From a virus, in IMG/VR virus record IMGVR_UViG_3300045971_001064, positions 34,739-98,738 of that record: a DNA stretch of 64,000 nt. One strand, given 5' to 3'. A program made the position numbers and the translations under genes. Below, piece by piece: positions 2,827-61,957 of the stretch; positions within the stretch are counted from its first letter, which is position 1, and every line of letters begins with the position of its first letter. The notes beneath the pieces are model-generated. The model saw only the letters and a program-made list of their open reading frames with translations. It was not told where the DNA came from and made no database searches.

Positions 2827-3102
2827 CTACAGCTTCCCGGCGAGGTACTCGGCGAGGTGGATGGCCGAATCGGCGTCCGAGCACATGAAGTGGCCGACCA
2901 TCGCGCGGCCGTTGGTGCGGCAGCCGAAGAGCACGGCCTCGACGGAGTGAGTGTCGCCGCCGCGGTCGGGCATGAAGGGGGTGACCTCGACCCGGACGGT
3001 CTCGCTCGACGCGGTGCCGTAGACGTGGCGGAACTTGCGGACCTTGCCGTCGACGACGCAGGGAGCCTTCTTGTCGCTGGAGATGCGGAATGAGTTGGTC
3101 AT
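2827..3102 (-). CDS. Hypothetical protein with leaderless-type promoter
   Basis: 91 residues starting MTNSFRISSDKKAP. It contains RVEVTPFMPDRGGDTHSVEA and a C-terminal DADSAIHLAEYLAGKL helix. The ATG at 3100-3102 is chosen because a perfect class A promoter ends six bases upstream; the longer frame would start inside the promoter. No family was recognised. It sits at the head of the minus block and faces away from the plus gene at 3321. Confidence 0.78.
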   Translation of the reverse strand: MTNSFRISSDKKAPCVVDGKVRKFRHVYGTASSETVRVEVTPFMPDRGGDTHSVEAVLFGCRTNGRAMVGHFMCSDADSAIHLAEYLAGKL

Positions 3103-3108
3103 GGAAGG

Positions 3109-3137
3109 AGTGTACCACCAGCCCGGACACGAGTCAA
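3109..3137 (-). promoter_or_regulatory. Class A leaderless promoter
   Basis: TTGACT at 3132-3137, 17-base spacer, TACACT at 3109-3114, CCTTCC, ATG. The -10 to ATG block is identical to the copies at 2795 and 17903. Confidence 0.8.
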
Positions 3138-3175
3138 GCGCGCAGCCGCTCATTCTCGGTGATGTAGGGTCTGAT

Positions 3176-3226
3176 GTCGGGAATAACCGACGTCATTTCG
3201 GGCGTTTCAACTATTATCACCCGAAA
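3176..3226. promoter_or_regulatory. AT-rich divergent control region with two inverted repeats
   Basis: GTCGG/CCGAC (3176-3180 and 3187-3191) is followed by a 7-base perfect repeat TTTCGGG/CCCGAAA (3196-3202 and 3220-3226). The second repeat encloses TATTAT at 3212-3217. It is noticeably AT-richer than its surroundings. It lies between divergent genes and looks like an operator or a structured leader. Confidence 0.4.
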
Positions 3227-3294
3227 CTCCAGTGATTCCGCTGAGTCGTCTTTCCTCGACAGCCGATGTCGCCATCGCCCGACACAAGCGCGTG

Positions 3295-3301
3295 CAATCA
3301 T
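3295..3301 (+). promoter_or_regulatory. Class C element (divergent copy) before 3321 gene
   Basis: CAATCAT preceded by GCGTG; this is a weaker match to the YAATCTAGG family. It lies 20 bases before the ATG, with an AAAGGAG ribosome site between them. Confidence 0.35.
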
Positions 3302-3320
3302 TCATGTAAAGGAGCAACAC

Positions 3321-3620
3321 ATGACCACCAAGAACTTCAGCATCGTCGGCGCCGGTCTCGGTCTCACTGCCTTCCTCGCGGTCGGGCTGCTGCCTGCCGT
3401 CCTGTACGGGGGCTACGCGGGCCTGATGCTGGCCAGCGGCATCGCGGGCACGCCTGTCCAGCCGACGGCCCTCGTCAAGGGGCTCATCGTCTTCGGGATG
3501 GTGCTCGGCGTGACCGGCGTGGCCTCGCTCTTCGCGGTGCTCGGCTCGGTGGCTGGCGCGGCCGTGGGGGCGCTCACGGCGCCAGTCAGGCGCTCGATGG
3601 CGCCTCAAGGCGACCGCTAG
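3321..3620 (+). CDS. Small two-to-three-pass membrane protein
   Basis: 99 residues. The start is fixed by AAAGGAG at 3308-3314. Hydrophobic segments are at residues 6-30 (FSIVGAGLGLTAFLAVGLLP), 33-45 and 55-85 (LIVFGMVLGVTGVASLFAVL), with a basic tail. A lone plus-strand gene between minus blocks. Its stop overlaps the stop of the convergent 3617-4306 gene through CTAG. The function is unknown; it could be a holin-like or envelope protein. Confidence 0.75.
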   Translation: MTTKNFSIVGAGLGLTAFLAVGLLPAVLYGGYAGLMLASGIAGTPVQPTALVKGLIVFGMVLGVTGVASLFAVLGSVAGAAVGALTAPVRRSMAPQGDR

Positions 3621-4306
3621 ACGCCCTTCGCGTCAAGCTCGTCGACCATGCCCTTGAACCGGGCGATGTCGACCAGCTTGGCGCGGCCCTCGTGGACCGT
3701 GAACTTGGAGAAGTCCTTGAGCGGCGCGTGCGGGCGCTTGACCTTCAGCAGGCTGGTCTTCCCGGCGGTCATCTCGATGCGTGCGTGCATGCCGTGGCGG
3801 TCGGCCTTCTTCACGACCTCGAAGCTCGTGGGGAAGTAGGCACTGGCGCCGACGCTGACCCAGCTTTTGGCGCCCGGGATGCGGATGAGCGCCCAGCGGA
3901 TGCCGTCGTAGACGCAGTCCCACCTCTGACCACCCTCGATGCCGCCGGACATCGCCTTCATCCACTCGGGGCGGTTCGGCTCCTTCACCTTGCGCTCCGG
4001 CTTCGGCGGAGGCGGCTCGTACGGCACTGGCGCGGGCAGCGCGGCGCCGCAGGACGGGCAGTGCTTCCACCAGTCAGGGCGCACGTGAAGAACGCAGCCG
4101 CAGGGGTAGCGGTACTTGTCGTCCTCGCAGACCCAGCGCGCTTCCTCGTTGTCGCCGCCGTCGTGAAGCCACTTGGGCACGCCATTCTCTTCGGGGATGG
4201 GCCACTTCGCAGCCGCCCACCCACCGCCGAACTTGGGCCAGATGACGTACTTGCCGTCGTTGGAGTGGTGGTAGCCCTCAGAGTCCTTCTTGCCGAAGAC
4301 CAGCAT
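3617..4306 (-). CDS. Hypothetical zinc-ribbon protein
   Basis: 229 residues from MLVFGKKDSEG. The middle contains a two-pair Cys arrangement (CGCVLHVRPDWWKHCPSCGA, residues 72-91), a probable zinc ribbon, followed by a Pro-rich linker (PVPYEPPPPKP) and a C-terminal alpha/beta domain (residues 120-229). The start shares a base with the upstream stop (TGATG). The role is unknown. Confidence 0.75.
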   Translation of the reverse strand: MLVFGKKDSEGYHHSNDGKYVIWPKFGGGWAAAKWPIPEENGVPKWLHDGGDNEEARWVCEDDKYRYPCGCVLHVRPDWWKHCPSCGAALPAPVPYEPPPPKPERKVKEPNRPEWMKAMSGGIEGGQRWDCVYDGIRWALIRIPGAKSWVSVGASAYFPTSFEVVKKADRHGMHARIEMTAGKTSLLKVKRPHAPLKDFSKFTVHEGRAKLVDIARFKGMVDELDAKGV

Positions 4307-43842: not shown

Positions 43843-46332
43843 ATGGCCACCCGGTTCGACCTCTCCGACAACCGCAAGAACCTCTACAACTCCAGCACTG
43901 GGGTTGGAGCGGCGGCGGGCATCGTCCCGGCGGGCTCCGAGAGGTACTCGCACGCGCTGTTCCCCGACGGCACTCTCTGGAACAAGGCCTTCCCCTACCA
44001 GTTGGTGGTCTTGGAAGTCGGCAAGAGTAACTTCAGGTCCACCGACATTTCGACGCGATTCCTGTCGGCCTTCAACACTGACCCGCCCTACCACATCTAC
44101 AACGGGCTCATCTTCACGCTGCCAGTGAACCCGGAGTCGATGAGCCTCACCATGCCGTTCGCCATCAACGTGTCGGCGACGCTGGGAGGCGTGGTCGAGC
44201 AGCACGGCGGCGCGCCCTTCCGTCACATCCAGTTCTCCGGCACCTTCGGCGTGGTCAACAACAAGCCGTCAGCGGCCGGGTTGCAGGGTGGACTGCTGTC
44301 TGGTCCCGGCGGCATCGCTGGCGGGACCATGCAGGCCGTCCAAGGCGTCATCTCCTCGGCGACCAGCCTCGGCATCGGAGACAAGTACAAGGCCAACCAG
44401 TTCGACGTGAAGCGCCTCAACTTCGACGAGGACAACGCCTCGGAAAGCGACACCGGGTACTTCCAGTTCAGGGCCCTCCAGCACTTCTTGGAGTCGTACG
44501 CTGAGGCCAAGAAGCAGTCGGACGGACGCGACCTGCGGCTCGCCCTGTTCATCTGGAAGGAGGAGGCGGCGTATCTGGTCACCCCTCAGCAGTTCGACGT
44601 CCAGAGGACCGCCCAGAGCCCCTACGAGTACCGCTACTCGCTGCGCTTGCAGGCGTGGCGGCGCATCCAGCCCAAGTACATCGCCAACGCTCCGACCGGC
44701 ATCGACCGCGGCGCTCAGACCGCCGAGAGCAGCTTCAGCTTCGCCAAGGTCCACAAGTTCGTCTCCGACGCCACCCGCACCGCCAAGGCCGTCCAGAACA
44801 CCCTGAAGGCCGTGCGCAAGGACATCGCCAAGGTCTTCGACCTGATGAAGCAGACCGCCCTCTTCTGCGGCGCCCTGACCGGCATCGTCAAGACCGCGTG
44901 GGACCTCCCGGCTGGCATCACCAAGGACTTCGAGTCGGCGGTGAACGAGTCGTGGGACATCCTGAAGGCCTCCTACGACGGCCTCGACCCGCGCACCAAG
45001 AAGACCGTCGACGCCATCACCGTCGAGGTCGGTGCGAGCAAGAGCGGCGGCAAGAAGAAGTCGTCGGCGCTGGAGCAGGCTCTGGTTGGAGACGACGACG
45101 GCTTCCTCGACCTCATCAAGCCCGACTCGCTCAACCTGTCCCCGACCGTCCGCGCCAACATCGACGACCACATGCAGCAGACGATGACCTTGACGAGCGA
45201 CGACTTCCGGGTCATCGCCGACACCGTCTTCGCCCTGACTGCCGACTTCGCCGACGCCGTCGGCCTCAACAGCCCCACCTACGACCTCGTGACCGGCCGG
45301 ACCGCCATTCCAAAGCTCCGCAACGCCACCATCGACGACTACCGGGCCATGCACTCGCTGGCCGTGGCTGGGACAGCCATCCTGTCGCTGGTCGTGAACG
45401 CCCCGAGCCGCGTGCCCGTCACCACCATCGAGTACGTCGCTGGTCTGGCCAACGCCAACGGCATCGCGATGCGTGTGCCGCTGTCCAAGTTCGCGGCCCC
45501 CTTCCCCTACGGCTCGTCCATGGAGCGCCTCGCCCAGCAGTACCTCGGCGACGCCTCCCGGTGGATGGAAATCGTGGAGTTGAACGAGCTTCGCGCGCCC
45601 TACGTCGACGAGGTCGGGACCACGGTGCTGCTGACCGTCAACGCCTCAGGCAACCTGCTCACCATGACCGACGCCTCGACCATCGGGGTCGGCCAGTTCA
45701 TCAAGCTCTGGTCGGACACGGTCATCTCCGAGAAGCGTCGCGTGGTGGCGGTCAAGTACTTCGGCCCCAACCAGTGGCAGGTGACGTTGGACGGCGAGAG
45801 CGACCTCGCGAAGTTCAAGGTGGCCAACCGCGCCTCGGTCCAGTACTTCCTCCGCGGCACCGTGAACTCGCAGCAAATCATCTACATCCCGTCCGACACC
45901 GCCGCCGACGCTGACCTGCTCAAGTACGTGCCGGGCGGCACCGACGTGGCCCAGTTGCTTCATCAGGGCGACGTGGACGGCATGCTCTCGCCGACCGGTG
46001 ACTTGGTCATCACTCCCGACGGCGACTGGCCGGTGGTCTTCGGCATGGCCTCGCTCGTCCAGTGGGCCCGGACCGCCCTGAACACCAAGATGGGGTCGCT
46101 GGCTCTGCACCCCGCCTTCGGGGTCGACGCCATGGTCGGCGACTCCATCGCGGACACCTCGGCCAACGACATCTTGAAGAGCGCGACCAACGTCTTCCGC
46201 TTCAACCCGAGCTTCACCGGGGTGACCAGCGCGGCTGTCGACGTCAACGGCCCCACGGCCCGCGTCACGCTCGAAGTGGGCGTCAGGGGCGTCGACTCGC
46301 TGCTGCCCATCTCCTTCAGCGTCCAGTCGTAA
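43843..46332 (+). CDS. Baseplate wedge protein: gp53/LysM-like plus gp25-like fusion
   Basis: 829 residues. The first 150 form a folded domain with NGLIFTLPVNPESMSLTMPF. Residues about 540-600 (PLSKFAAPFPYGSSMERLAQ, then ASRWMEIVELNELRAPYVDE) look like the gp53/LysM region of wedge proteins. Residues about 715-829 (GDLVITPDGDWPVVFGMASL, VQWARTALNTKMGSL and a C-terminal strand) match the GpW/gp25-like wedge fold. In T4 these are separate proteins; here they appear joined. Confidence 0.65.
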   Translation: MATRFDLSDNRKNLYNSSTGVGAAAGIVPAGSERYSHALFPDGTLWNKAFPYQLVVLEVGKSNFRSTDISTRFLSAFNTDPPYHIYNGLIFTLPVNPESMSLTMPFAINVSATLGGVVEQHGGAPFRHIQFSGTFGVVNNKPSAAGLQGGLLSGPGGIAGGTMQAVQGVISSATSLGIGDKYKANQFDVKRLNFDEDNASESDTGYFQFRALQHFLESYAEAKKQSDGRDLRLALFIWKEEAAYLVTPQQFDVQRTAQSPYEYRYSLRLQAWRRIQPKYIANAPTGIDRGAQTAESSFSFAKVHKFVSDATRTAKAVQNTLKAVRKDIAKVFDLMKQTALFCGALTGIVKTAWDLPAGITKDFESAVNESWDILKASYDGLDPRTKKTVDAITVEVGASKSGGKKKSSALEQALVGDDDGFLDLIKPDSLNLSPTVRANIDDHMQQTMTLTSDDFRVIADTVFALTADFADAVGLNSPTYDLVTGRTAIPKLRNATIDDYRAMHSLAVAGTAILSLVVNAPSRVPVTTIEYVAGLANANGIAMRVPLSKFAAPFPYGSSMERLAQQYLGDASRWMEIVELNELRAPYVDEVGTTVLLTVNASGNLLTMTDASTIGVGQFIKLWSDTVISEKRRVVAVKYFGPNQWQVTLDGESDLAKFKVANRASVQYFLRGTVNSQQIIYIPSDTAADADLLKYVPGGTDVAQLLHQGDVDGMLSPTGDLVITPDGDWPVVFGMASLVQWARTALNTKMGSLALHPAFGVDAMVGDSIADTSANDILKSATNVFRFNPSFTGVTSAAVDVNGPTARVTLEVGVRGVDSLLPISFSVQS

Positions 46333-46350: not shown

Positions 46351-46392
46351 ATGTAGCGACCCTCCCAGTTCTTGGGGGCGGCGGAGACCCAC

Positions 46393-49300
46393 ATGCCCAT
46401 CTCGTCCACACCTACGTTCCGCTCACTCTCCACCATCGTGGGCGACATGGTCTCCACGTTCCTGAGTGAACTGGACCGCAACAACATCGTGCCGGGCATC
46501 CAGTCGCTGAAGCCGGGCAGCCCGTACCTCGCCATCTTCGAGTCGACCGGCCAGTCGCAGTTCCGCAACCAAGAGCAGACCCTCAGCCTCCTCGACGCCA
46601 ACGACCTCGACATCGCTCACGGCGAGCGCCTCGACCGCATCGGCGCCGCCGAGAAGCTCCTCCGGCGCGGCGCCACGTTCGCCACCGGCTACGTCAACAT
46701 CTCCGACACCAGCTTCACCAAGGTCTCCACCCGCGTCTACCAAGGCAAGCCCGCCCCCATCCCGGGCAGCGTCACCATCTACGTCGCCGACGCGACGGGC
46801 TTCGGCACCACCGGCAACCTGTACATCGGCCGCAACACCCCGAACCTCGAAGGTCCGCTGGCCTACACCGCCTGCGTGAACGCGGGCTCCTACTGGACCA
46901 TCACCCTCGCCGCCGGAACCACCAACTTCCATGGTCTGGGTGAGGGAGTCGTCTTCGCTCAGGGCGGCGACCGCGTCATCACCGCCGGGCAGAGCGTCAC
47001 CACCCCTCAGGGCAACAGCGCCACCTACGCCAAGTTCACCACCACCGCTGCGGCCACCCTCCTCGACGGCGAGACCTCCGTCCTGAACGTCCACGTGGCC
47101 AGTACCGTGCCCGGGGCTGAAGGCAACGCCTCCGCTGGCGGGGTCAAGGTCATCCCCTCTCCCGCCTTCACCGGCATGGCGGTCACCAACCCGCTCCCCA
47201 TCACCAACGGGCTCGACGTCGAGAACGACGACCTGTACCGGGAGCGCATCAAGGCCGCGCGGCGCTCGCGCGTGGGCACCGGCACCGTCCTCGGCATCAA
47301 CGTGCACTCCTACGGCGTGCAGGCGCCCGACGAGGCGGCCACGGTCGTCTCCTCGCAGTACCTGTTCCGCCAGATTCTCCCCTCGCTGCTGGTCATCGAC
47401 GACGGCACCGGCTACGAGGCCAAGGAGTCCGGCATCGCCTACGAGGTCCTGATGGACTCGGCCATCGGTGGCGAGGACGTCTTCTTCCTCAACCACGGGC
47501 AGCCTGTCGCCAAGGCCAGCCTGACGACCGTGCTGGCGGCACCGTACCCGCTCGCCAACCTCGACGTCCTGACCGTCAAGGTCGGCGGCGTCACCTACTC
47601 CCACTCCTTCGACTCGACCGACTTCCTCGACATCACCAACGCCACCGCCTACGAGGTCGTGGCCAGCATCAACTCGAACCCGACCATCCCGTACTCGGCG
47701 CGCACCAGCGGCGCGGGCACCAAGGTGGCCATCTTCGCCAAGGCGAACACCAACGACGACATCGAGGTCGTGGCAGGTGGCGCCAACGTCGCCCTCAGCT
47801 TCCCGCCGGGCGTCGTCGAGGCGCTCCGCCTCTACAAGAACGACTACCTCCTCTCGAAGGACGGCACCAGCGCCTCCTTGACCTCAGCCGACCAGTCGAT
47901 GTGGTCCGGCATCGTCAGCGGCGACACGCTCACCATCTCGGTCGACGGCACGCCGAGCATCACCTACACCTTCACGGACAACGACGTCATCGACCTCGGG
48001 CTCGGCTACGCCACCCTGAGCAACCTGCTGCCCCTGAGCGCGTGGGTCTCCATCTTCAACAACAAGGTCCCGGGCGTCACCTGCGCTCTGTCCGGCTCCT
48101 CGCTGACCTTCACCTCGAACCTCGGCCCGTCGGCTCGTGCCAGCGTCACCATCGACCCCGCTTCGAGCTTGGTGACCAAGGGCGTCTTCAACCCGCTGGC
48201 GCTGACCTCCTCCGGCCGCGCCAAGGACTTCGTCCTCGACCGCAACCGCGGCCAGATTGACCTGACCCAGCCGCTCGTGGCTGGCGACCAGTTGACCGCT
48301 GGCTCCTCCTTCACTCGCGCCTACTTCCAGTCGGCCTCGCTGCTGGCGCTGTCCGTCGTCCCGGTCGGCGGAGCCAACTTCTGGTTCACGGTCGACGGCG
48401 ACGCGGTCCGCATCCCGCACACCCTGAACGCCTCCCACCGCGTCAACCAGTTCTGGGACGCGGGCGGGCGCACCTTCATCAGCTACACCGGCATCGTCAC
48501 CCCAGCCTTCTGCTTCCGGAACGTGCAGGTCGGCGACTACGCCATCTGGACCGAGGACATGTGGGCCGCGGCTCCCGCCACCTTCTCGGTCATGCGCATC
48601 AACTGGGTGGCGCTGGACGGCTCCTCCTTCCGCTGCGACTACCCGACGACCGGCCTCGGCACCGCCTCGGGCTTCAACAACGCAGCCCTGCCCGCCTTCG
48701 AGCGGCTGTTCTTCGTCCGCGCCAGCGCCATCCCGCAGCACGTGACCATCGCGGCTGGCAACTACTCCCCGACGGCTCTGGCTGCCGCGGTGACCGGGCT
48801 GACCGGCGCGACCGTCAGCATCGAGCGGAACAAGCTGCGCATCACCACCAACACCTTCTCCACCCTCGGTGACATCGCCCTGTCGGCGCAGGACGTCAGC
48901 GCCCTGACCGCCCTCGGCTTCACGGTCGGCTCCTCGGTCCAGAACGACGAGCCCGAGACGGCCGCGGTCGAGTCAGGCAACTCGGACGTGGGCACTCCTC
49001 GACTCGTTGACGCGCTCACGGCCTACGTACCCCCGCTGGAGGTGCTGAGCGACCTGAGCGTTGGGGTGACGCAGAGGGACATCGTCGGCGCCCTCTGGCT
49101 TCGCGCGGTCGGCTCGGACACCTTCCTTGGCGTCGTGACCACGGCCAGCGGCACCAACACTGGCGACTCGGCGGAGTGGACCAGCTACGTCGCCGGGAAC
49201 GTGTTCCTCGACCACCTGCTCGCCCAGCCGCGCGCCGCAGTGGACGTCTTGGCGGCCGTGTCTCGCTACCGCGTCGGCCCCATCTCGGACCTGAACGTCG

Positions 49301-52300
49301 TCTTCGACAACGACCCCGTCACCAAGGGCTACTCCATCCCGATGACCCGGTGGTTGAAGACGGACCCCTCCGTTCCGTACGGCATCAACCTCCGTCTCGT
49401 GGATGCCGACAACTCCAACGGCTCGCTGGCCTTGGCCTTCGGCACCAGCTTCGACTTCTCCAACTTCGTGCTGCACGGCCGTGGCCGAGGTCGCGTCAAC
49501 CTTGCCCTGACCCAGCCTGCCAGCACTGACGTCGTGATGCTCCGCTGGAACCGCTGGTCCGGTGCCACTGTCAACTCGGACGTGTACATCGTTCCGCCGA
49601 ACGCAGCCAGCGCTGCTCTCGACGTCGCATGGGACGCCGCTAGCGACAACACGTACGTCTATCTGGCTTCGGGCGCCGACCGCGGCGACATCTTCACCTA
49701 CGGCTCGCATCACTACGTCGGGCAGGGAGCCAGTACCGCCACCCTCGTGTCGGCCTTCAACATCTCGAACATCGCTCGCGTCGGCGGGAACACCGTCACC
49801 GTGACGCTGGGGCGGCCGACCGCCGACATCCTCTTCCACGGAATCACTCCCGGCGCTGCCATCTACCTTGACATCGTCGACGCCAACTTCGCCTCTGGGT
49901 TGCAGACGGTGACCGCTGTCGCTGACGGCTTCCCCGGAGCCACCCTCACGTACATCGAGACCGGCGCCAACGTGTCGGTCGCCAACCCGCCCAACGCCTA
50001 CCTGAGCCGCGGCACGCCGTTCGTTCCCGACTACTCGGCCGTGCAGGTCGGGGACATCATGTCCTTGAAGGCCTCGAACGTGTTCCTCTGGAGCGTGCCT
50101 GCGATGCTCGCGGGCGACCGAGCCCGAGCGCAGGTCGTTGCCAAGTCGCCCGACGCGACGCCGCGCTGGGTTCGACTTGCGACTGGAGTCTTCAACACCG
50201 GCTGGGGCTTCACGTGGTCCTCCACCGACGACATCCGCTTCTTCCCTCTGACGGCCAACACCACCACCGCCGTCATCGCCGCCATCAACGCCCTGACCAC
50301 CTCCACCGTCAGCGCGACGTTGGCTAGCGGGCCCGGCACCGGGCTCATCTCGAAGGTCTGGGACGACATCAACTTCGCCGTCGCCACCACCCTGCGCGAC
50401 TCGCTGCTCTACATCGCGTCCGCCACCTACAACGCTGCGCCGGGCGTCCTCAACTACGACATCACCTTGAAGGTGGATGTGGAGCCGGGCCTCGCTGTCG
50501 CCCCCAACGACTGGGCGAACGAGGAGTTCCGGCTCGCGCCGACCACCGCCAAGAACGTGGCGGACTACCTGAACCGCGGACAGGTCACTGGGCTCGCCTC
50601 GACCGGCGCCAGCATCAAGGCGTCCTCCAACGGCCGCAAGGTGCAGTTGGCTTCCGGTACGCTCGGCTCCGGCGGGGCAGTGCAGGTCACGGGCGGCACC
50701 GCCAACTCGGCGTCCTTCCCTGTTATCTCCACTTCTCTGGTCACTGCGCTGCTGTCGGCAGTGGTCGCGACCAACAGCGGCGTCGACTCGCTCTCGCCGC
50801 AGTCGAACCTGATGCTCACGAACACGGACGTTCTTCCGAAGGTTCTCGACTGGACGGCGGCGACCATCCTGTCGGCCACGCTCGGCGAGGTCGTGGTCTC
50901 TGGCGCTGGCAAGGCATGGACGGCGCTGACGCCCGCGGTTCAGAACGGGCCTTCGTGGCTCTGGAGCGACGCCGGGAACTTCAAGGTGGCCTTCGACAGC
51001 AGCAACACCCTGACCTTCTCCGACGGGGGCTGGGTGCGCTTCGAGCCGGGCTGGGGCAAGTGGAAGCCGGTCGGCTCTCGCGCGAACGCTCTGGTTGGTG
51101 CGGCGTACGTCACCCTGCCGAGCGGGAAGACGATGTCCATCGGAGGGGTCAACGACACCCAGCTTGCGTCGGTCACCGCCACGTCGAACGCGGTTGAACT
51201 CTACGACCCCGTCGCCGAGACGTGGTCGACTCTCGCGGTGCTCCCGGCCGTGCGAGCCTTCGGGGCGGCTGCGTACATCCCGTCGCTCAACAAGGTGCTC
51301 TTCGCTGGCGGCATCCACAATACGGCCCCGGGCGTCTTCGCGTGGCATGCTGAGGCGTGGCTGTACGACATCACTGGCAACTCGTGGGCAGCAACGGGGC
51401 CCCTGAGCGCCGCTCGCTCCCACTTCACGCTGACCACCATGTCCACGAACGAGGTCGTCGCGGTCGGTGGCATGACCTCGCTCACCGCCTCGACGAACAG
51501 CGTCAACGTCTACAGCCCCCTCGCCTTCACCTTCAGCGTGGTGGCCTCCATGGCCAAGGCTCGCGGCACGCACAGCGCCTTCCTCTACGGCATCGACCAG
51601 TTGCTGGTGGTCGGCGGCTTCGGGCCAGCCAGCACCGGCTACGAGACGTTCGCCCTGAACGCGCTCGCGTGGAGCAACGACTCTGCCTTCGCTAGCGGCC
51701 TCGTGCTGACTGCACCCACGGTCGTCGCGCTCTCCTCCACCAAGTTCTTGGTCGCGGGTGGCATCACCACCACGACCGTCGACTTCATTGTCGGTGTCAC
51801 GCAGCCGACGCGCAAGGCCGAGGTGTACGACGTCGTCTCCCACACCGCCGCTGCGGTCGGCGACCTCGTCATCCCGCTCGCCGCTGGCAACGGCGCTGCT
51901 ATCCCGACCAACAAGGTTCTGGTCTGGGGCGGAGCATGGGGCATGCCCTTGGCTGGCGTCGTCCAGTATCCCTTGCCGCACGGCATCAGCCAAGTGTACG
52001 ACATCGCCTCCGACACGTGGACGCTGGCGTCCGCCTCCAAGCTGGCTCACGTCTACGCCCCGGCCTTGAACGTCGACGGCACCACTGTGACCGTCGCTGG
52101 CAGCGCCCTCGCTGACAGCAACGTCCCGAGCGCGGGCACTGAGCGGTTCGACTCGGCCATGCTGGCAGCGCCCGCAGGCAACACCGGGACGTTCCGGGCT
52201 CTCCGCGGCGGAGGCTCGCACGTCGTCATCGAGGCTCCTGCCTCCGTGGCTGGCGAGTGGGACTACGCCTACGTCCGCAGCTACACCTACGACTCCCTCA

Positions 52301-53067
52301 TGCCGGGTGACGTGCTCAACCTGTCGTCAGGCGCCCTCGGGACCGCTCCCGCTGGCAGCTACACCGTGCTCTCGACCGACTTCTCGAACGTGGCGAAGTT
52401 CACCGTCACGGGCTCGGGCACGTGGGCGACCGGCGCCTTCGGCACGGCTCTCCCTCTCGTGCGCGTCATCGCTCGGTCCCCGGCCCGGATGCTGTACTCC
52501 GTCCAGTACATCGGGCCGAGCGCAGATGCGGGCCAGACTAGCCTGCGCCTGTACCCCTCGACCTTCCAAGAGCAGTTCTCGGCCGCTGCTGGCTCGGTGC
52601 TGGTGGCTCAGGACAAGCTGGCCTTCCCGACCACTCTGGTCCCCGGGCAGGACGGCTACCGGTACAACACCGGCCTCATCGCCGAGGTCACCAAGGTCGT
52701 CTACGGCGACGAGCGCGACACGGTCACCTACCCGGGCTACGCCTCGGCCGGTGCCGCCATCGACGTCTCGGCGCCGCTCATCAGGCGCGTGCTCATCTCG
52801 CTGGCCATCCGCGCTCGGTCCGGTGCGGTGGACATCAAGAGCCGCGTCCAGTCGGCCGTCGCCAAGGTCGTGAACTCGGCTGCTCCGGGCCCCATCGCCC
52901 TCTCGCTCATCATCGAGGCGGTGCAGCAGGTCGACGGCATCATCTCGGTCGTCCTCCTGTCCCCGGTGGCCACCACCACCGCCGACACCATCCCGGTCCA
53001 GCCGTACGAGAAGGCTCTCGTGCTCGACCCGACCAATGATGTGACCGTCAGCCTCATCGGGGCGTAA
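46393..53067 (+). CDS. Giant baseplate J-like protein with an inserted Kelch propeller
   Basis: 2224 residues from ATG at 46393, with GGCGGAG upstream; a TTG seven codons earlier is less likely. Residues 1-300 hold the Baseplate_J N-terminal region and core (SYWTITLAAGTTNFHGLGEG, then TNGLDVENDDLYRERIKAAR). Residues about 350-1560 are beta-rich repeats with Ser/Thr-rich strands. Residues about 1560-1930 look like a Kelch beta propeller: repeated blades such as KVLFAGGIHNTAPG, VVAVGGMTSLTAST, QLLVVGGFGPAST and KFLVAGGITTTTV, each with a YD-type turn. The C-terminal 130 residues (RRVLISLAIRARSGAVDIKS) match the C-terminal Baseplate_J domain. It would be part of the wedge ring, with a surface propeller. 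Confidence 0.75.
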   Translation: MPISSTPTFRSLSTIVGDMVSTFLSELDRNNIVPGIQSLKPGSPYLAIFESTGQSQFRNQEQTLSLLDANDLDIAHGERLDRIGAAEKLLRRGATFATGYVNISDTSFTKVSTRVYQGKPAPIPGSVTIYVADATGFGTTGNLYIGRNTPNLEGPLAYTACVNAGSYWTITLAAGTTNFHGLGEGVVFAQGGDRVITAGQSVTTPQGNSATYAKFTTTAAATLLDGETSVLNVHVASTVPGAEGNASAGGVKVIPSPAFTGMAVTNPLPITNGLDVENDDLYRERIKAARRSRVGTGTVLGINVHSYGVQAPDEAATVVSSQYLFRQILPSLLVIDDGTGYEAKESGIAYEVLMDSAIGGEDVFFLNHGQPVAKASLTTVLAAPYPLANLDVLTVKVGGVTYSHSFDSTDFLDITNATAYEVVASINSNPTIPYSARTSGAGTKVAIFAKANTNDDIEVVAGGANVALSFPPGVVEALRLYKNDYLLSKDGTSASLTSADQSMWSGIVSGDTLTISVDGTPSITYTFTDNDVIDLGLGYATLSNLLPLSAWVSIFNNKVPGVTCALSGSSLTFTSNLGPSARASVTIDPASSLVTKGVFNPLALTSSGRAKDFVLDRNRGQIDLTQPLVAGDQLTAGSSFTRAYFQSASLLALSVVPVGGANFWFTVDGDAVRIPHTLNASHRVNQFWDAGGRTFISYTGIVTPAFCFRNVQVGDYAIWTEDMWAAAPATFSVMRINWVALDGSSFRCDYPTTGLGTASGFNNAALPAFERLFFVRASAIPQHVTIAAGNYSPTALAAAVTGLTGATVSIERNKLRITTNTFSTLGDIALSAQDVSALTALGFTVGSSVQNDEPETAAVESGNSDVGTPRLVDALTAYVPPLEVLSDLSVGVTQRDIVGALWLRAVGSDTFLGVVTTASGTNTGDSAEWTSYVAGNVFLDHLLAQPRAAVDVLAAVSRYRVGPISDLNVVFDNDPVTKGYSIPMTRWLKTDPSVPYGINLRLVDADNSNGSLALAFGTSFDFSNFVLHGRGRGRVNLALTQPASTDVVMLRWNRWSGATVNSDVYIVPPNAASAALDVAWDAASDNTYVYLASGADRGDIFTYGSHHYVGQGASTATLVSAFNISNIARVGGNTVTVTLGRPTADILFHGITPGAAIYLDIVDANFASGLQTVTAVADGFPGATLTYIETGANVSVANPPNAYLSRGTPFVPDYSAVQVGDIMSLKASNVFLWSVPAMLAGDRARAQVVAKSPDATPRWVRLATGVFNTGWGFTWSSTDDIRFFPLTANTTTAVIAAINALTTSTVSATLASGPGTGLISKVWDDINFAVATTLRDSLLYIASATYNAAPGVLNYDITLKVDVEPGLAVAPNDWANEEFRLAPTTAKNVADYLNRGQVTGLASTGASIKASSNGRKVQLASGTLGSGGAVQVTGGTANSASFPVISTSLVTALLSAVVATNSGVDSLSPQSNLMLTNTDVLPKVLDWTAATILSATLGEVVVSGAGKAWTALTPAVQNGPSWLWSDAGNFKVAFDSSNTLTFSDGGWVRFEPGWGKWKPVGSRANALVGAAYVTLPSGKTMSIGGVNDTQLASVTATSNAVELYDPVAETWSTLAVLPAVRAFGAAAYIPSLNKVLFAGGIHNTAPGVFAWHAEAWLYDITGNSWAATGPLSAARSHFTLTTMSTNEVVAVGGMTSLTASTNSVNVYSPLAFTFSVVASMAKARGTHSAFLYGIDQLLVVGGFGPASTGYETFALNALAWSNDSAFASGLVLTAPTVVALSSTKFLVAGGITTTTVDFIVGVTQPTRKAEVYDVVSHTAAAVGDLVIPLAAGNGAAIPTNKVLVWGGAWGMPLAGVVQYPLPHGISQVYDIASDTWTLASASKLAHVYAPALNVDGTTVTVAGSALADSNVPSAGTERFDSAMLAAPAGNTGTFRALRGGGSHVVIEAPASVAGEWDYAYVRSYTYDSLMPGDVLNLSSGALGTAPAGSYTVLSTDFSNVAKFTVTGSGTWATGAFGTALPLVRVIARSPARMLYSVQYIGPSADAGQTSLRLYPSTFQEQFSAAAGSVLVAQDKLAFPTTLVPGQDGYRYNTGLIAEVTKVVYGDERDTVTYPGYASAGAAIDVSAPLIRRVLISLAIRARSGAVDIKSRVQSAVAKVVNSAAPGPIALSLIIEAVQQVDGIISVVLLSPVATTTADTIPVQPYEKALVLDPTNDVTVSLIGA

Positions 53068-54390
53068 ATGGCATACGAGAAGAACTGGCAGTTCGACACC
53101 AACCGGCTCTACGTACCGGGCAGCACGCCCCCGCCCCTGATGCTCAACGCTGTGGCGGTGGCCGGTGGCGGCACGTTCGCCTCCAACACGACTTATCAGT
53201 ATGCAATCACCGCCACCAAGAACGGATGCGAAAGCCTCGTCTCGAACGAGCAGTGGGCCATCTCACCTATTTCAGGCACCATCGTTCTCACTTGGACGGC
53301 AGTGCCCGGCGCGACTGCTTACACCGTCTACCGCGGCACAATCTCTCGTTCCTACAGTAGGTGGATGCAGTTGGGGAACGTGCTGACTTACGTAGACACC
53401 AACGCGATGAACGTTTCCAGCGGCATCACCGGCACCCCCTACAACTACGCGCCGGAGACCAGCAAGTACGCCCTCTGGTACTACAAAGCCTTCCTCACGG
53501 GTCAGATTGGCGGAGCCACACTCGGCCTCTGGACGGTGGCTGGTTCTAGCGACTCGGTCACCGGAGCCATGGACGGTGTCGACCGCTGGGGTCCGACTTT
53601 TGACGGGACAAAAATCTACGGCAACGCCGCGGGCACCTTCCATTCGTGGGTGTGCCTCAAATCACCCCTCATCTTGGGGCACAACTACTACATCCTCATC
53701 GACTTCAACAGCAACAGCGCCTATCAGGCGTCCTTCTCGTTGGTGGCTGACGCGGCGCCAACCGGAGGCTCGAACACCACAGCGCCGACCACGGTCTTGC
53801 CTGCAACCATCTCCCCCTTCATCACGCTCACTTCGGCGTCGGCCTCGTACTACCCGGCAGGCGCGTTCCGATTGCACGGCGCGCTGGCGAGCGACGGTAG
53901 CTTCAACATTCTCACTAGCCGCAACGGCTCGGGGCGGTTCGTCTCAGGGTTCCTGTTCCATTTGCTCGCCAACTATCGCCCCGCCGACCAGTTCCCATGC
54001 TGGATGTCATTCAACCTCGATTACACACTCGGCTCTATGTCGTCCAGTTATGGCGGCACCAAGGGTAACAGCAACTCTCTGGACTCTATCAGCAACGCGA
54101 TGATGAGGTCCCCGAACAACAGCGGCTTCGACTTCTACTCTGTGGTGCTGCCGGTCGTCACCAACTGGCCTGACGGAGAGGACCGCTTTGACCTCTCCTA
54201 CGCCGACTGGCCGTGTTGGGTCTCGAAGAAGACCGGCACCAACATCGGCACGCGGGGCCGCCTCCAAGACATCACGTTCTTGGCTGGCACCCCGGACATC
54301 GGCACGACCGACGACCCTATCTCGCCGAAGTACGTCAGCGTCGGCGGTCTCTGGCGCTTCCCCATCGACCAGCGCATCCTCTGGGAGTAA
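53068..54390 (+). CDS. Tail fibre paralog 1, with fibronectin-like insert in the N-terminal stalk
   Basis: 440 residues, starting MAYEKNWQFDTNRLYVPGST. The insert (residues about 25-115) has a fibronectin-III-like pattern (LTWTAVPGATAYTVYRGTIS) and lies before the conserved anchor WYYKAFLTGQIGGATLGLW. The rest is beta-rich (GSGRFVSGFLFHLLANYRPA). Four tandem genes of this type follow the baseplate gene; this one and the third share the longest block (FLTGQIGGATLGLWTV region). It probably binds host receptors. Confidence 0.75.
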   Translation: MAYEKNWQFDTNRLYVPGSTPPPLMLNAVAVAGGGTFASNTTYQYAITATKNGCESLVSNEQWAISPISGTIVLTWTAVPGATAYTVYRGTISRSYSRWMQLGNVLTYVDTNAMNVSSGITGTPYNYAPETSKYALWYYKAFLTGQIGGATLGLWTVAGSSDSVTGAMDGVDRWGPTFDGTKIYGNAAGTFHSWVCLKSPLILGHNYYILIDFNSNSAYQASFSLVADAAPTGGSNTTAPTTVLPATISPFITLTSASASYYPAGAFRLHGALASDGSFNILTSRNGSGRFVSGFLFHLLANYRPADQFPCWMSFNLDYTLGSMSSSYGGTKGNSNSLDSISNAMMRSPNNSGFDFYSVVLPVVTNWPDGEDRFDLSYADWPCWVSKKTGTNIGTRGRLQDITFLAGTPDIGTTDDPISPKYVSVGGLWRFPIDQRILWE

Positions 54391-54393
54391 CAC

Positions 54394-55716
54394 ATGGCCT
54401 ACGAAAAGACGTGGCAGTTCGACATCAACCGCGCGTACTCCCCCTCCACCTTGACGGACATGGGGAAGTGGGTGCTGTGGTACTACAAGGCCTTCCTCAC
54501 GGGTCAGATTGGCGTCAGCGGCACCGCACCGACCGTCATCACGGTAGCAACTCCGAGCGCCGCGGGTGGCACCTTGGCGGCAGGGGTCTACTACTACCGC
54601 GTGGCCGCGATTGTCGGCGGCGTCGAGTCTGTCGGCTCGAACGAGTTCACGGTCACGACCACGGGTGCGACGGGGTCTGTGGCGCTCACTTGGCTGGCCG
54701 TCACTGGCGCAACCGGCTACCGCGTCTACCGTGGCATCGCGTCGGGGGCCGAGAACGTCTTCTACGCTCCCGGGGCCGTGACAACCTACACGGACACCAA
54801 CGCAGCCTCGTCGGTCGGCTCTCCTCGCACCGACAAGGGCACTTGGTGGGTCGTGGGGTCATCCAACTCGACCACGGGCGACAACTTCTCGGGAACCAGC
54901 TTCGGCCACGACTACTGGGCGTCCGCGACCCGGCCTGAAACCTACACGGCCGCCAACATCGTCCGCAACACGGCAGGCTCGGCTCACTCTTGGTTGGTGC
55001 TGCGCTCACCGGCCTCTGTGGGAGGAGGGAAGGCGTATTACCTGCTTCTCGACTGGAGCACGGCGACGGACTATCAGGTCACCGTCACGCTGGGAGTTGA
55101 CTCGCCTCCGACCGGCGGCACGAACACCACCGCCCCGACGATGGTCAACTTCACCGGCAGCCAGTTGCTCAGCGCGGTCTTCTCGATGAGCGCCACGAAC
55201 GGCCCCATCCACATGCACGGCACCTTGGCGACCGACGGCAGCTTCAACATGCTGATGTCTCGCGACGCCACCGGCAAGTTCATCTCAGGGTTCCTTGGGC
55301 ACGCACCCGCCAACGTGAAGGTGAACGACCTCTACCCGCTGTGGATAAGCATGTACGGCGACTCAACCGCCGCCTCGGGCTACGGAGCGGTGGCGAGCAC
55401 GTACGCCCCAGACAACGCGACGTGGAGCATGATGCGAGCCCCAGACAACTCGCTGGGCGGCGGTTGGGCGGTCGTCAGCCCAGCGCTGACGTACCTTCCT
55501 GCCGCGCCCGACAGCTTCGACGGCAGCTTCATCGACTGGCCTTGCTGGCTGGGGGCGAGCACCCTAGCGTACCGCTCGATGCGCGGTCGCCTCCAAGACA
55601 TCATGTTCTTTGGCGGCGGCGTGGCGACCGGCTCCGTGGACAATCCGGCGGGCACGCCGGGATTCATGGTGGTCGGCAACTACTGGTTCCCCACCAACGC
55701 CGCCCCCATCTTGTAG
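54394..55716 (+). CDS. Tail fibre paralog 2, with fibronectin-like domain after the anchor
   Basis: 440 residues starting MAYEKTWQFDINRAYSPSTL. The fibronectin-like domain (residues about 47-145, with VALTWLAVTGATGYRVYRGI) lies after WYYKAFLTGQIG, a different insertion point from paralog 1. The C-terminal part (YLLLDWSTATDYQVTVTLGV, then ATGKFISGFLGHAPANVKVN) is the shared receptor-type domain. It starts 3 bases after the previous stop. Confidence 0.75.
   Translation: MAYEKTWQFDINRAYSPSTLTDMGKWVLWYYKAFLTGQIGVSGTAPTVITVATPSAAGGTLAAGVYYYRVAAIVGGVESVGSNEFTVTTTGATGSVALTWLAVTGATGYRVYRGIASGAENVFYAPGAVTTYTDTNAASSVGSPRTDKGTWWVVGSSNSTTGDNFSGTSFGHDYWASATRPETYTAANIVRNTAGSAHSWLVLRSPASVGGGKAYYLLLDWSTATDYQVTVTLGVDSPPTGGTNTTAPTMVNFTGSQLLSAVFSMSATNGPIHMHGTLATDGSFNMLMSRDATGKFISGFLGHAPANVKVNDLYPLWISMYGDSTAASGYGAVASTYAPDNATWSMMRAPDNSLGGGWAVVSPALTYLPAAPDSFDGSFIDWPCWLGASTLAYRSMRGRLQDIMFFGGGVATGSVDNPAGTPGFMVVGNYWFPTNAAPIL
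54547..54580 (+). repeat. 34-base direct repeat shared with paralog 4
   Basis: Exact repeat of 56878-56911, located at the start of the fibronectin-like domain in paralogs 2 and 4. Confidence 0.9.
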
Positions 55717-55719
55717 GAG
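55681..55719 (+). repeat. 39-base repeat at the end of paralog 2
   Basis: Identical to 56677-56715 and includes the last codons and the Shine-Dalgarno of the next gene. It marks the cassette boundary. Confidence 0.9.
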
Positions 55720-55728
55720 GAGTCCGCC

Positions 55729-56712
55729 GTGGCGACGTACGAGAAGTCGTGGCAGTTCGACATCAACCGGGTCTACTCGGATGCCGTCACCTCGGCGGAC
55801 ATGACGAAGTACACGCTGTGGTACCTCAAGGCCTTCCTCACGGGTCAGATTGGCGGAGCCACACTCGGTCTTTGGACTGTGGTTGGGTCTAGCGACTCGG
55901 TCACTGGAGGCATGGACGGTGTCGACCGTTGGGGCTCGACGTTTGACGCCACCAAGCTGGTGCGCGCGTCGGCCAACACGGCACACTCGTGGTGCGTGTT
56001 GAAGTCGCCCCTTATCAAGGGGTCCTTCTACTACTTCAACATCGAGTGGAAGAGTGGCGCTGACTATTCCTTCTACCCCCAGTTCACGACTTCTTTGCCT
56101 ACTGGAGGCTCAAACACCACACCGCCCGTCAGCGCGACTCCTACCGCGGCGCCGGGGACGACGACAGCTACGCCCATCTCAGCCAGCACCAACCCCGGCG
56201 CGATGCACCTGCATGCTGCACTGGCCACTGACGGCAGCTTCTACTTGCTGACCTCGCGAGACAACGTCGGCAAGTTCCTTGCGGGCGTGGTGTGCGTGTG
56301 GCTCGGGAACGCCAAGCCGACCGACAGCTATCCCCTCTTCTTGCACTGCAACGGTGACATCGGTCAGTCCAACGGCTACGGAGCGTCCGGGGTCAGTAAC
56401 GGCATGGAGTGGAACAACGGCGGGTGCATGCTGGCGCCAGATAACTCGCTCGCCGGGCTCTGGGCGGGCGTCATCCCATCCACCACTAATCTACCTGCTG
56501 GCAGCGACCCGTTCGACTCCAGTTACCTCGACTTCCCCGTTTTTGTAGGCGCGTCTGCTATTGCGTACCGAGGCCTGCGCGGTCGAGTCCAAGACATCAT
56601 GTTCTTCCCCGGCGGAGCTAGCACAGGAACGGTGGACAACACCGCAGGTGCACCGACTTACATGGTGGTCGGCAGCTACTGGTTCCCCACCAACGCCGCC
56701 CCCATCTTGTAG
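55729..56712 (+). CDS. Tail fibre paralog 3, without fibronectin-like domain
   Basis: 327 residues from GTG, starting MATYEKSWQFDINRVYSDAV. The anchor (WYLKAFLTGQIGGATLGLWT) joins directly to the receptor-type domain (SVTGGMDGVDRWGS, then LKSPLIKGSFYYFNIEWKS), so this is the minimal form of the family. The coding bases are less GC-rich than in the tail module, which hints at more recent exchange. Confidence 0.75.
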   Translation: MATYEKSWQFDINRVYSDAVTSADMTKYTLWYLKAFLTGQIGGATLGLWTVVGSSDSVTGGMDGVDRWGSTFDATKLVRASANTAHSWCVLKSPLIKGSFYYFNIEWKSGADYSFYPQFTTSLPTGGSNTTPPVSATPTAAPGTTTATPISASTNPGAMHLHAALATDGSFYLLTSRDNVGKFLAGVVCVWLGNAKPTDSYPLFLHCNGDIGQSNGYGASGVSNGMEWNNGGCMLAPDNSLAGLWAGVIPSTTNLPAGSDPFDSSYLDFPVFVGASAIAYRGLRGRVQDIMFFPGGASTGTVDNTAGAPTYMVVGSYWFPTNAAPIL

Positions 56713-56715
56713 GAG
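56677..56715 (+). repeat. 39-base repeat at the end of paralog 3
   Basis: Second copy of 55681-55719. Confidence 0.9.
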
Positions 56716-56721
56716 AACTCC

Positions 56722-58032
56722 GTGGCCCGAGAAAAGACTTGGAAGTTCGACATGAACCGGGCGTACACCCCGTCCACGCTGCTGGACATGTCGAAGTACA
56801 TCCTCTGGTACTACAAGGCCTTCCTGACGGGGCAGATTGGCGTTGGGTTCACGGTGCTCGCAACCACCATCACGGCCGCAACTCCGAGCGCCGCGGGTGG
56901 CACCTTGGCGGACGGCACCTACTACTACCAAGTCACCGCTCTGAACGGCGGCAACGAGAGCGCGCCATCCAACGAGGTCTTCGCGACCGTTACCGGTGGT
57001 GGTAGCGGGTCTGTCGCCCTCACTTGGACAGCGGTGTCCGGCGCGACTGGCTACCGCGTCTACCGCGGGACAGCCGCGGGCGTCGAGAGCGTCTTCTACG
57101 CCCCGGGCGCTGTGACGACCTACACCGACATCAACGCAGCCTCGTCGGTCGGCTCTCCTCCGGCGACGGGCACTTGGGTTGTCGTCGGCTCCAGCGACGC
57201 ATCCACTGCCGGTATGGACGGGCTCGACCGATGGACGAACTCTTACGTCGCGGGCAAGGTCAACCGTAACAACGCAGGCTCCGCCCACTCTTGGGTGGTG
57301 CTGCGCTGCACCGTGCAGATGGCGTCCAAGCAGTTCTACCTGCTGCTCGACTGGAGCACCAGCTTCGACCATGCGCTCACCACGACCTTCGGAGACACCA
57401 CACCTCCGGTCGGCGGTAACATCAACACCGCACCCACTCTCGCAAACCTCGCAGCCTGCACGTCCTTGCCCTTCAGCGCAAACGCTGGGCTGGTGCCGAT
57501 GCACCTGCACGGTGCGCTGGCCACTGACGGCAGCTTCAACTTACTGGTGTCGAGCGACTTCACCATGAAGTTCCGGTCAGGCTTTTTGCTGCACCTGCTG
57601 GCCGCCTACAAGGTGACGGACTTGTATCCCGTGTGGATGTCGCTCGCTGGAGAGATAGGCGCTCAGCAGATGGGGCTTGGGTACGGCACCTCGGGGGCAG
57701 CGCCGGACCTCGGCTATATCTCCAACTCGGCCATGCGATACCCCGACAACACCAACAGCGGCCAAGTCGGAATCATCCAGCCCACCGGAACCAATCTGCC
57801 TTCCGCCCCGGACCTGTTTGACGGCACCTTCGCCGACTGGCCTGCGCTTGTCGGCAACAAGGTTGTGGGCAACACAACCCTGCGCGGGCGCTTGCAGGAC
57901 ATCTACTACTTCCCGAACTCGACCGGCACTGCCGTGCCGTCGACCGGCGCCGTCGATAACCCGGCAGCGCCGGAGTACATGCTCGTCGGACAGTGGTGGC
58001 TCCCCACCAACGCCATCCCTAACATCTACTAA
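56722..58032 (+). CDS. Tail fibre paralog 4, with fibronectin-like domain after the anchor
   Basis: 436 residues from GTG, starting MAREKTWKFDMNRAYTPSTL. The fibronectin-like domain (VALTWTAVSGATGYRVYRGT) lies at the same point as in paralog 2. The C-terminal domain differs most from the others (KFRSGFLLHLLAAYKVTDLY, then IQPTGTNLPSAPDLFDGTFA). It ends the fibre cassette. Confidence 0.75.
   Translation: MAREKTWKFDMNRAYTPSTLLDMSKYILWYYKAFLTGQIGVGFTVLATTITAATPSAAGGTLADGTYYYQVTALNGGNESAPSNEVFATVTGGGSGSVALTWTAVSGATGYRVYRGTAAGVESVFYAPGAVTTYTDINAASSVGSPPATGTWVVVGSSDASTAGMDGLDRWTNSYVAGKVNRNNAGSAHSWVVLRCTVQMASKQFYLLLDWSTSFDHALTTTFGDTTPPVGGNINTAPTLANLAACTSLPFSANAGLVPMHLHGALATDGSFNLLVSSDFTMKFRSGFLLHLLAAYKVTDLYPVWMSLAGEIGAQQMGLGYGTSGAAPDLGYISNSAMRYPDNTNSGQVGIIQPTGTNLPSAPDLFDGTFADWPALVGNKVVGNTTLRGRLQDIYYFPNSTGTAVPSTGAVDNPAAPEYMLVGQWWLPTNAIPNIY
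56878..56911 (+). repeat. 34-base direct repeat shared with paralog 2
   Basis: Second copy of 54547-54580. Confidence 0.9.
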
Positions 58033-60193: not shown

Positions 60194-61957
60194 ATGTCCA
60201 CCTCAGCCATCTTCACAGGTCTCGGCTTCACGCTCGTCTCCGCTCAGCCGGTGGACGCCTCGACCATCTTGGTGACGTTCGACTACACCCCGCTGCCGGG
60301 CGTGGGCGTGTACGGGCTGCTGTCGAACCACGGCGACGTCCGCACGGTCACCGTCGGCGCTGGGCCCCAGCCGCATCAGGTCTACCTCTACACGAACGCG
60401 CCGCTCACGCAGGACTTCTGGACCCTCAGCTACTCGGGCCAGCAGACCGGCGCTCCGCCCGTCACCATCACCGCTGGCTCGACCTACTTCTGGTGCGGCG
60501 TTGGCGCTGCTCCCGTCGGCGCTTCGTCGCCTCCCTTCTCCGGCGAGAACCAGACCGCGGCCGAGTTCATCCGCGACCACATCCCTTCGAGCATGAAGGG
60601 GAACGTCTGGGCCTGCCTCATCGCCGGTCTCGCGGCCGGTGAGCAGGTGGCTTGGGACAACGCTCCCCTCGTCGACCGCCAGATGTTCTTGGCCACAGCC
60701 TCGGGCGTGTGGCTCGACCGGCGCGCGGCTGGGCTCGGCTTGGAGCGCCCCGTCAACGTCGGCATGGGCGACGAGCCCTTCCGCGGGTACGCTGTCGCGG
60801 TCTCCTCCGGCCAGCAGACCATCATCGCCTTCCTCGAAGCTCTCAGGGTCTTCTACGGCCGGACCGCGGTGCAGGCGGCAGCCGTCAGCGGCGACGAGCC
60901 CTTCGCTCTGGCGGACGGCCAGCGGCTGGAGTTCACCCTCGACGGCGTCCAGACGGTCGGGGTCACGTTCGCCACGGCCGACTTCCAGAGCATCGGTGCG
61001 GCCACCTCCCGCGAGGTCGCCAGCGTCCTGAACCGCGAGTTCTCCCTCCAAGGGGTCAGCGCTATCGCCTTGGTGGACGAGAACCCCATCACCAAGGTGC
61101 CCCGGGTGACCCTCTACACGGGCACGCTGGGAGCGCGCGGGAGCCTTCAGGTGGCGTCCGGCGCCGTCCAGACGGCACTGGGCCTGCCTACGACCCTCCG
61201 ACGCCTCTTGGGGCAAGCTGGAGCGTCCTACGTGCTGTCCCGTGGCGCCGGGCAGGTCGAGGTCTTCTTCCCGGCCACCACGCAGGTCGTCGGCCGCGAC
61301 CAGACCTCAGCCGCCTACCTGACCGACGACTCCGGGCTCATCTACGGCGACGACCTGTACGGGATGGGTGTGTACGGGGTGGGAGGGCCTCCGGCAGGCA
61401 TCGGGCCGTACCTGTTCGAGGGGGTCGACAAGGGCTTGGCCATCACCGAGGTCGCCACCGTCACCACTGCGTCGGTCCTCGGTGCCGGGAACCAGTACAG
61501 GCTTGTGGAGGTCGGCTCGACGGCCGGGTTCACCGACGCCGAGTGCTGGCTGGTCTTCGGCTACGGCTACGAGTACCAAACCGGGCCAGTGCGCTGCCTC
61601 GGCGTGGCCGGGCCGACGACCCTCCTGCTCGACGTGGCCTTCACCTTCCCTGCCGCCATCCCGGTCGGCGCCTCAGTGAACCTCCTCTTGAGCGCCGCTC
61701 CGCCCACCTTCGCGGTCGGTGACATCGGGAACTTCTACCTGACCGACTCGCCCGCTGGCCGCGTGGCTGCTATGGCCGCCATCGACTCCATCGCCGCGGC
61801 CGGGTACGCCGTCACGAAGACCGTCACCTACCCCGGCGACGTCGGGCTGGGGAACGAGGGCCGCCCCACCCACGGCACGCCCGCCATCTCCGACATCGTC
61901 CAGTGCTTCGCTGGCTCCGATGTCGACGGCGAAGTCGCCACCGCGAGGAGCACCTAG
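60194..61957 (+). CDS. Baseplate or tail-tip protein with Ig-like start
   Basis: 587 residues. The first 110 are an Ig-like domain (STSAIFTGLGFTLVSAQPVD, then TILVTFDYTPLPGVGVYGLL). Residues 118-220 (AEFIRDHIPSSMKGNVWACL, then GVWLDRRAAGLGLERPVNVG) resemble the N-terminal helical part of the baseplate J-like gene. The remainder is beta-rich. It may be a distal baseplate component near the fibres. Confidence 0.6.
   Translation: MSTSAIFTGLGFTLVSAQPVDASTILVTFDYTPLPGVGVYGLLSNHGDVRTVTVGAGPQPHQVYLYTNAPLTQDFWTLSYSGQQTGAPPVTITAGSTYFWCGVGAAPVGASSPPFSGENQTAAEFIRDHIPSSMKGNVWACLIAGLAAGEQVAWDNAPLVDRQMFLATASGVWLDRRAAGLGLERPVNVGMGDEPFRGYAVAVSSGQQTIIAFLEALRVFYGRTAVQAAAVSGDEPFALADGQRLEFTLDGVQTVGVTFATADFQSIGAATSREVASVLNREFSLQGVSAIALVDENPITKVPRVTLYTGTLGARGSLQVASGAVQTALGLPTTLRRLLGQAGASYVLSRGAGQVEVFFPATTQVVGRDQTSAAYLTDDSGLIYGDDLYGMGVYGVGGPPAGIGPYLFEGVDKGLAITEVATVTTASVLGAGNQYRLVEVGSTAGFTDAECWLVFGYGYEYQTGPVRCLGVAGPTTLLLDVAFTFPAAIPVGASVNLLLSAAPPTFAVGDIGNFYLTDSPAGRVAAMAAIDSIAAAGYAVTKTVTYPGDVGLGNEGRPTHGTPAISDIVQCFAGSDVDGEVATARST

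Follow-up and report, generated by a model that had tools for sequence, protein, structure and literature searches.

Here we show that a Kelch-type propeller carried inside the giant Baseplate_J-type wedge protein (J) of a virus is not tied to that protein, and that its socket changes among related phages, which mount it in three alternative places in two wedge-type proteins. We consider it probable, with room for other readings, that this propeller, plugged into a J-type wedge, is a binding module for a host surface structure. Phage domains that bind receptors are usually looked for in tail-tip fibres and spikes; in this case a likely binding module would form part of the wedge that sets off contraction, not of a fibre or spike. 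Propellers on phage baseplates are already known, but the alternative wedge sockets appear to be new, and neither a J protein with a Kelch propeller nor the alternative-socket pattern was found described in the openly searchable (non-subscription) literature.

A giant Baseplate_J-type protein and its Kelch propeller

The stretch of DNA analysed here, referred to as the window, comprises 64,000 nucleotides (34739-98738) of a 98,738-bp IMG/VR virus record, a 98.7-kb contig. Its J gene is an open reading frame of 2,231 codons from a TTG, in which an in-frame ATG at 46393 gives 2,224 amino acids, the length assigned to the protein by an earlier reading made from the sequence alone (the sequence-only reading). 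By sequence comparison the product has the profile of a Baseplate_J or gp6-like wedge subunit: residues 195-300 match the Pfam Baseplate_J family (E 3.6e-10), the protein matches PHROG 6, "baseplate wedge subunit" (E 2.8e-21), and ordinary J proteins of 470 amino acids (L060-L065) match both the N- and the C-terminal core parts of the giant family (Table 1), in agreement with the earlier claim that J sequence is present at both ends. A full-length relative of the window J, 58% identical, is found in L002/L004. An assembly artefact or false fusion is ruled out, since L004 and L073 (55-58% identity) share the arrangement.

Table 1. Features of the baseplate region in the window, with the evidence for each (residues refer to J)
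Feature	Position	Strand	Evidence
Baseplate hub-type protein, upstream of J	43843..46332	+	PHROG 184 baseplate hub, PHROG 975 baseplate protein
Giant Baseplate_J-type wedge protein	46372..53067	+	Pfam Baseplate_J, PHROG 6, full-length relative
J core, N-terminal part, residues 8-400	46393..47571	+	Family HMM vs 470-aa J, E 1e-38
Beta-module insertion of ~1,680 residues, residues 400-2080	47569..52611	+	Missing from ordinary J; in all giant relatives
Slot B, residues 718-770, empty in window	48523..48681	+	Scan of relatives
Predicted seven-bladed Kelch propeller, slot A, residues 1558-1936	51043..52179	+	Pfam Kelch, shuffles, AlphaFold2, Foldseek/VIA
Propeller blades 1-3, residues 1581-1625, 1640-1682, 1689-1731		+	HMM
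Propeller blades 4-6, residues 1745-1771, 1786-1834, 1845-1892		+	HMM
Beta module resuming behind propeller (NTGTFR...), residues 1937-2010	52180..52401	+	Post-slot half-module match
J core, C-terminal part, residues 2081-2231	52612..53064	+	HMM vs ordinary J, E 1e-22
C2, second baseplate/wedge-type protein, propeller-free in window	60194..61957	+	Homologues including Mx1 carry propeller

The J proteins of relatives in viral contigs (n ~58) measure 1,690-2,620 amino acids, whether or not they bear a propeller, and the propeller-free ones still reach 1,850-2,600. The giant size results from about 1,700 residues of beta modules that split the J core, and the Kelch domain, implied by the sequence-only reading as its cause, is ruled out as such by propeller-free J proteins that are just as large. 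Short beta modules recur within the insertion, one kind following the pattern GD(W/Y)V...N.G.F.V..V...ENP and a second kind marked by HGL.VGD. Antisense to J, on the minus strand at 48973-52221, runs an open frame of 1,082 codons, most likely a by-product of the 91% GC3 of the J gene.

In Pfam searches, J matched Kelch_6 (E 1e-11) and Kelch_1 (E 9e-9), with Kelch repeats at about residues 1580-1730. A blade HMM trained solely on other phages, leaving out the window together with its two closest relatives, scored the propeller segment at 107.9 bits; 500 shuffles of the same residues reached no more than 11.2 bits, so that the Kelch signal does not stem from composition. The blades display a hydrophobic strand with a GG doublet, followed by Y and W at set distances, as expected of Kelch repeats; six were recovered by the HMM, a degenerate seventh closes the ring, and the strands of the model extend from residue 1552 to ~1929. 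The Pfam and blade HMM matches confirm the Kelch propeller that had been reported within the Baseplate_J protein at 51070-52190, each end of which lies within about 30 bases of the boundary found here. The window record contains exactly one propeller.

The fold was predicted with AlphaFold2 for J residues 1440-2010, from an alignment of relatives with 16 rows. Values of pLDDT were mostly 80-98 in the propeller, dipping to about 50 in loops, and about 30-55 in the flanks overall, with about 30 in the 110 residues before the propeller and a poorly predicted module after it. Foldseek matched the propeller model to Keap1-type Kelch domains (E about 1e-18), and VIA-align matched model residues 119-497, corresponding to J residues 1558-1936, to the seven-bladed domain of galactose oxidase (Z 32.3, 3.5 A, 340 residues, 16-19% identity). 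The window propeller is thus predicted to be a closed seven-bladed ring with an end-to-end match to the galactose oxidase domain, a computational answer on the blade count and closure that the sequence-only reading had referred to structure prediction. An open beta solenoid, its counter-hypothesis, is ruled out by the predicted closed fold and the full-length seven-bladed match, and six blades, as suggested by the Keap1 matches, were rejected because the longer and better matches are seven-bladed. The propeller in the C2 protein of L009 has the same predicted fold (Z 35.3).

Alternative sockets in two wedge-type proteins

A scan of all the relatives for propellers, akin to the search among other phages that the sequence-only reading had suggested, located them at three addresses. 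Slot A of J (after residue ~1557) is occupied in the window, L004 and L073, and slot B (after residue ~759) in L021, L024, L030, L034-36, L050, L051 and L059. The third socket lies in C2, between conserved N and C parts, in Mx1, L007/8, L009, L010, L012, L013, L014, L022/23 and L039, likewise in L011 and L045 (from whole records), and C2 is divided into two genes beside the propeller in L016, L019, L020 and L058; in total about 15 relatives, the cultured Myxococcus phage Mx1 among them, have a C2 propeller. Where slot-B phages have C2 sequence present, it contains a second propeller, and some phages therefore carry two. Among the J-tree entries of the propeller-bearing lineages, 28 extend as far as C2 (L018 and L038 are cut off), and 26 of these have at least one propeller, L006 and L015 being the only two with none. 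C2 is intact and propeller-free in L005, L006 and L015, which, together with sister lineages lacking the domain, indicates that the propeller is not essential across the whole family. As a separate observation, C2 occupies two or more genes around or beside the propeller in L016, L019, L020, L021, L030, L034-L036, L058 and L067, with kilobases of other genes sometimes separating the two parts.

The closest cultured relative, Mx1 (OR576727; WNM70274, WNM70275 "kelch repeat protein"), has a homologous giant J (39% identity over the alignment) and hub. Its baseplate cluster likewise encodes a Kelch propeller, located in the downstream C2 gene (982 aa) and not in J: its J is propeller-free, and the gene that follows after 14 bases is the propeller-bearing homologue of C2. 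The long tail of Mx1 is contractile (PMC10720576), in support of a contractile setting for the baseplate; the genome announcement does not discuss the Kelch protein (PMC10720576). In phages of this kind, a gene next to J whose product is labelled "kelch repeat protein" can be annotated as encoding part of the baseplate. The hub-type gene adjoins J upstream in both the window and L002; in Mx1 its homologue, annotated as "baseplate assembly protein", belongs to the same cluster and lies ~6 kb upstream. In L002, the nearest relative, an HNH-endonuclease-like ORF (3015-3632, 205 aa) separates the hub gene from J and might promote recombination in the baseplate region.

The surroundings of the sockets were compared by scoring half-modules separately, a module HMM run across the joined flanks being unclear at slot A, against random stretches of the same phages' proteins; the resulting p-values are conservative, since the background stretches contain true modules. 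In C2, the first half of the HGL.VGD module precedes the propeller in 8 of 11 cases tested (rank p 0.013-0.038), and at slot B a GDW module does so in five of six (p up to 0.025). At slot A, an NTGTFRV half follows the propeller in the window, L004 and L073 (p 0.007-0.037), and the preceding half, GGWVRFEPG, scored weakly (p 0.14 or more). These matches support, but do not prove, the view that every socket is either a loop of such a beta module or a joint between two of them. In propeller-free relatives the slot-A position (window residue 1562) is taken by other inserts of 90-350 residues; those at ~1562 in L025, L033, L042, L046, L054 and L055 are other modules, including a repeated "G.DF.VG.T...T..NLAAAI" domain.

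Phylogeny and origin of the propeller

A tree built from the N-terminal region of J, which excludes both slots, places the slot-A phages in one clade (support 100/100) and the phages with both slot-B and C2 propellers in another (99/96), each nested within lineages whose propeller is borne by C2; a separate clade of 16 entries is propeller-free. The tree of the propellers themselves groups mostly by slot, with the slot-A group on a long branch. Bacterial Kelch proteins match the L073 propeller with up to 58.8 bits, some being as similar to the slot-A propeller, and when three bacterial propellers were added, the AU test gave p 0.21 for slot A with C2 and 0.40 for slot A with slot B. Neither placement is supported or rejected by the AU test. 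With this, the grouping by slot and the bacterial similarity, an origin of the slot-A propeller from C2 could not be proved, and the change of socket fits relocation within a genome as well as fresh capture.

We entertain with considerable doubt the broader reading of a propeller that is nomadic across the whole lineage: a host-binding part that has moved, within a single genome too, among sockets in C2 and at two positions in J while keeping its function. If true, the copy number and the site of the propeller on the baseplate would change and its function would be kept. A T4-type wedge consists of two J-like subunits and one gp7-like subunit, and gene order suggests that C2 may be the counterpart of gp7; should this stoichiometry hold, a move from C2 to J would raise the number of propellers per baseplate.

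Proposed function and rival explanations

The propeller diverges faster than the J core. Slot-A pairs (n=3) share 41-51% identity in the propeller versus 74-80% in both J core parts, and slot-B pairs 33-48% versus 52-73% in the J core; between slots propeller identity falls to ~20-25%, with the blade motifs still intact. Across 161 blades the loop behind the GG doublet ranges from 5 to 33 residues (sd 4.9), and the other inter-strand lengths are nearly constant (sd 0.1-1.3). In Keap1-type propellers the post-GG loops sit on the ligand face. The persistence of the propeller despite changes of address, its fast divergence and its variable loops together favour a host-facing binding module, and an outward-facing binding platform, as proposed in the sequence-only reading, is plausible, as it fits both the fast divergence and the presence of long, variable loops on a single face.

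In the mechanism that we propose, the predicted closed seven-bladed propeller, inserted in a loop region of the giant J wedge protein, would stand off the wedge on the arm of ~1,700 beta-module residues that interrupts the J core. One face, with its long variable loops, would bind a host polysaccharide or outer-membrane protein, and the propeller would assist baseplate attachment or orientation ahead of sheath contraction; related phages mount such propellers in either slot of J or in C2, and sometimes two of them. The fold, the position, the sockets and the faster divergence are computational results, and exposure of the propeller, its ligand and its effect on adsorption are what we infer here. 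The three mounting places offer a natural comparison for where binding domains on a baseplate can act, with Mx1, a phage of the laboratory organism Myxococcus xanthus, as a cultured member.

Binding of a host ligand would have parallels in other phages. Gp45 of Staphylococcus phage phi11 carries receptor-binding propellers in six-fold arrangement around the baseplate, forming a host-recognition platform with a putative GlcNAc cavity (PMC4901313); it differs in being a five-bladed, trimeric stem-platform-tower protein of a siphophage. In the Pseudomonas myophage phiKZ, gp131C is reported to place a propeller at the baseplate periphery, for which receptor binding is proposed, not proven (PMC4901313); gp131 (PDB 4GBF) has a C-terminal seven-bladed propeller and is a separate protein, unlike the insertion in J, the likeness being one of description. 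Neither 4GBF (phiKZ gp131C) nor phi11 Gp45 was among the Foldseek and VIA fold matches listed. Kelch proteins have also been linked to virions in other phages: CBB_552 was found in those of Pectobacterium phage CBB (PMC5259590), and Kelch proteins of the jumbo phages PhiPA3, Noxifer and phiR1-37, annotated as virion components, were BFVD matches to the propeller at 10-18% identity; the Kelch proteins of CBB and the other jumbo phages have no known insertion in a wedge J.

The propeller face could instead serve assembly, as an adaptor fixing a tail fibre, a spike or a product of the genes at 53068-58032 to the wedge, which we regard as unlikely yet worth weighing. Kelch propellers elsewhere usually bind proteins, J and gp7-like wedge proteins of other phages carry fibre attachment sites, and four tandem paralogous genes do lie between J and C2 in the window phage. 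In Mx1, however, J and the Kelch gene are separated by a gap of 14 nt with no gene between them, so that the tandem paralogues are not needed. A shift between J and C2 would moreover force the partner to follow, and no conserved partner surface is apparent, given the identity of the propeller relative to the core. The paralogues themselves (440, 440, 327 and 436 aa) are about 36-55% identical to one another, some having an extra fibronectin-like stretch; L002 has one copy and Mx1 none.

Divergence and variable loops would be equally expected from weak constraint on a decorative domain, which counts against a binding role. The propeller would then be a fast-evolving spacer, placed where beta modules tolerate insertions; the other inserts at slot A and the propeller-free phages of the family point in this direction. 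A neutral spacer predicts otherwise, however, than the retention of the propeller by nearly all members of its lineages despite its change of address, and the blade motifs are intact even at between-slot identity, which makes a spacer improbable.

Least probable of all, and by our estimate very much so, is an enzyme acting on host polysaccharide with a Kelch fold like that of galactose oxidase or the sialic-acid epimerase NanM: the top structural matches are indeed galactose oxidases and other AA5 oxidases, and relatives give weak NANM Pfam matches, but identity to the former is just 16-19%, the AA5 C-terminal domain is unmatched, and residues 1558-1940 hold no cysteine, so that the AA5 Cys-Tyr cofactor cannot form and the chemistry of galactose oxidase (an AA5 copper radical oxidase), and with it copper oxidase activity, is excluded. 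What the window propeller shares with galactose oxidase (AA5) is the seven-bladed Kelch fold; it differs in belonging to a virion-type protein and in lacking the Cys-Tyr residues.

Apart from function, two observations concern the hosts of these phages. L073, which has a close slot-A homologue (55% identity), is a 20-kb contig in a "Rhodospirillaceae" MAG; it looks like phage DNA, and the MAG assignment therefore gives no safe host. The G+C content of the sampled relatives (L003-L073) runs from 37% (L025) to 67% (L021), with 66% in the window, a range wide enough to indicate many different hosts.
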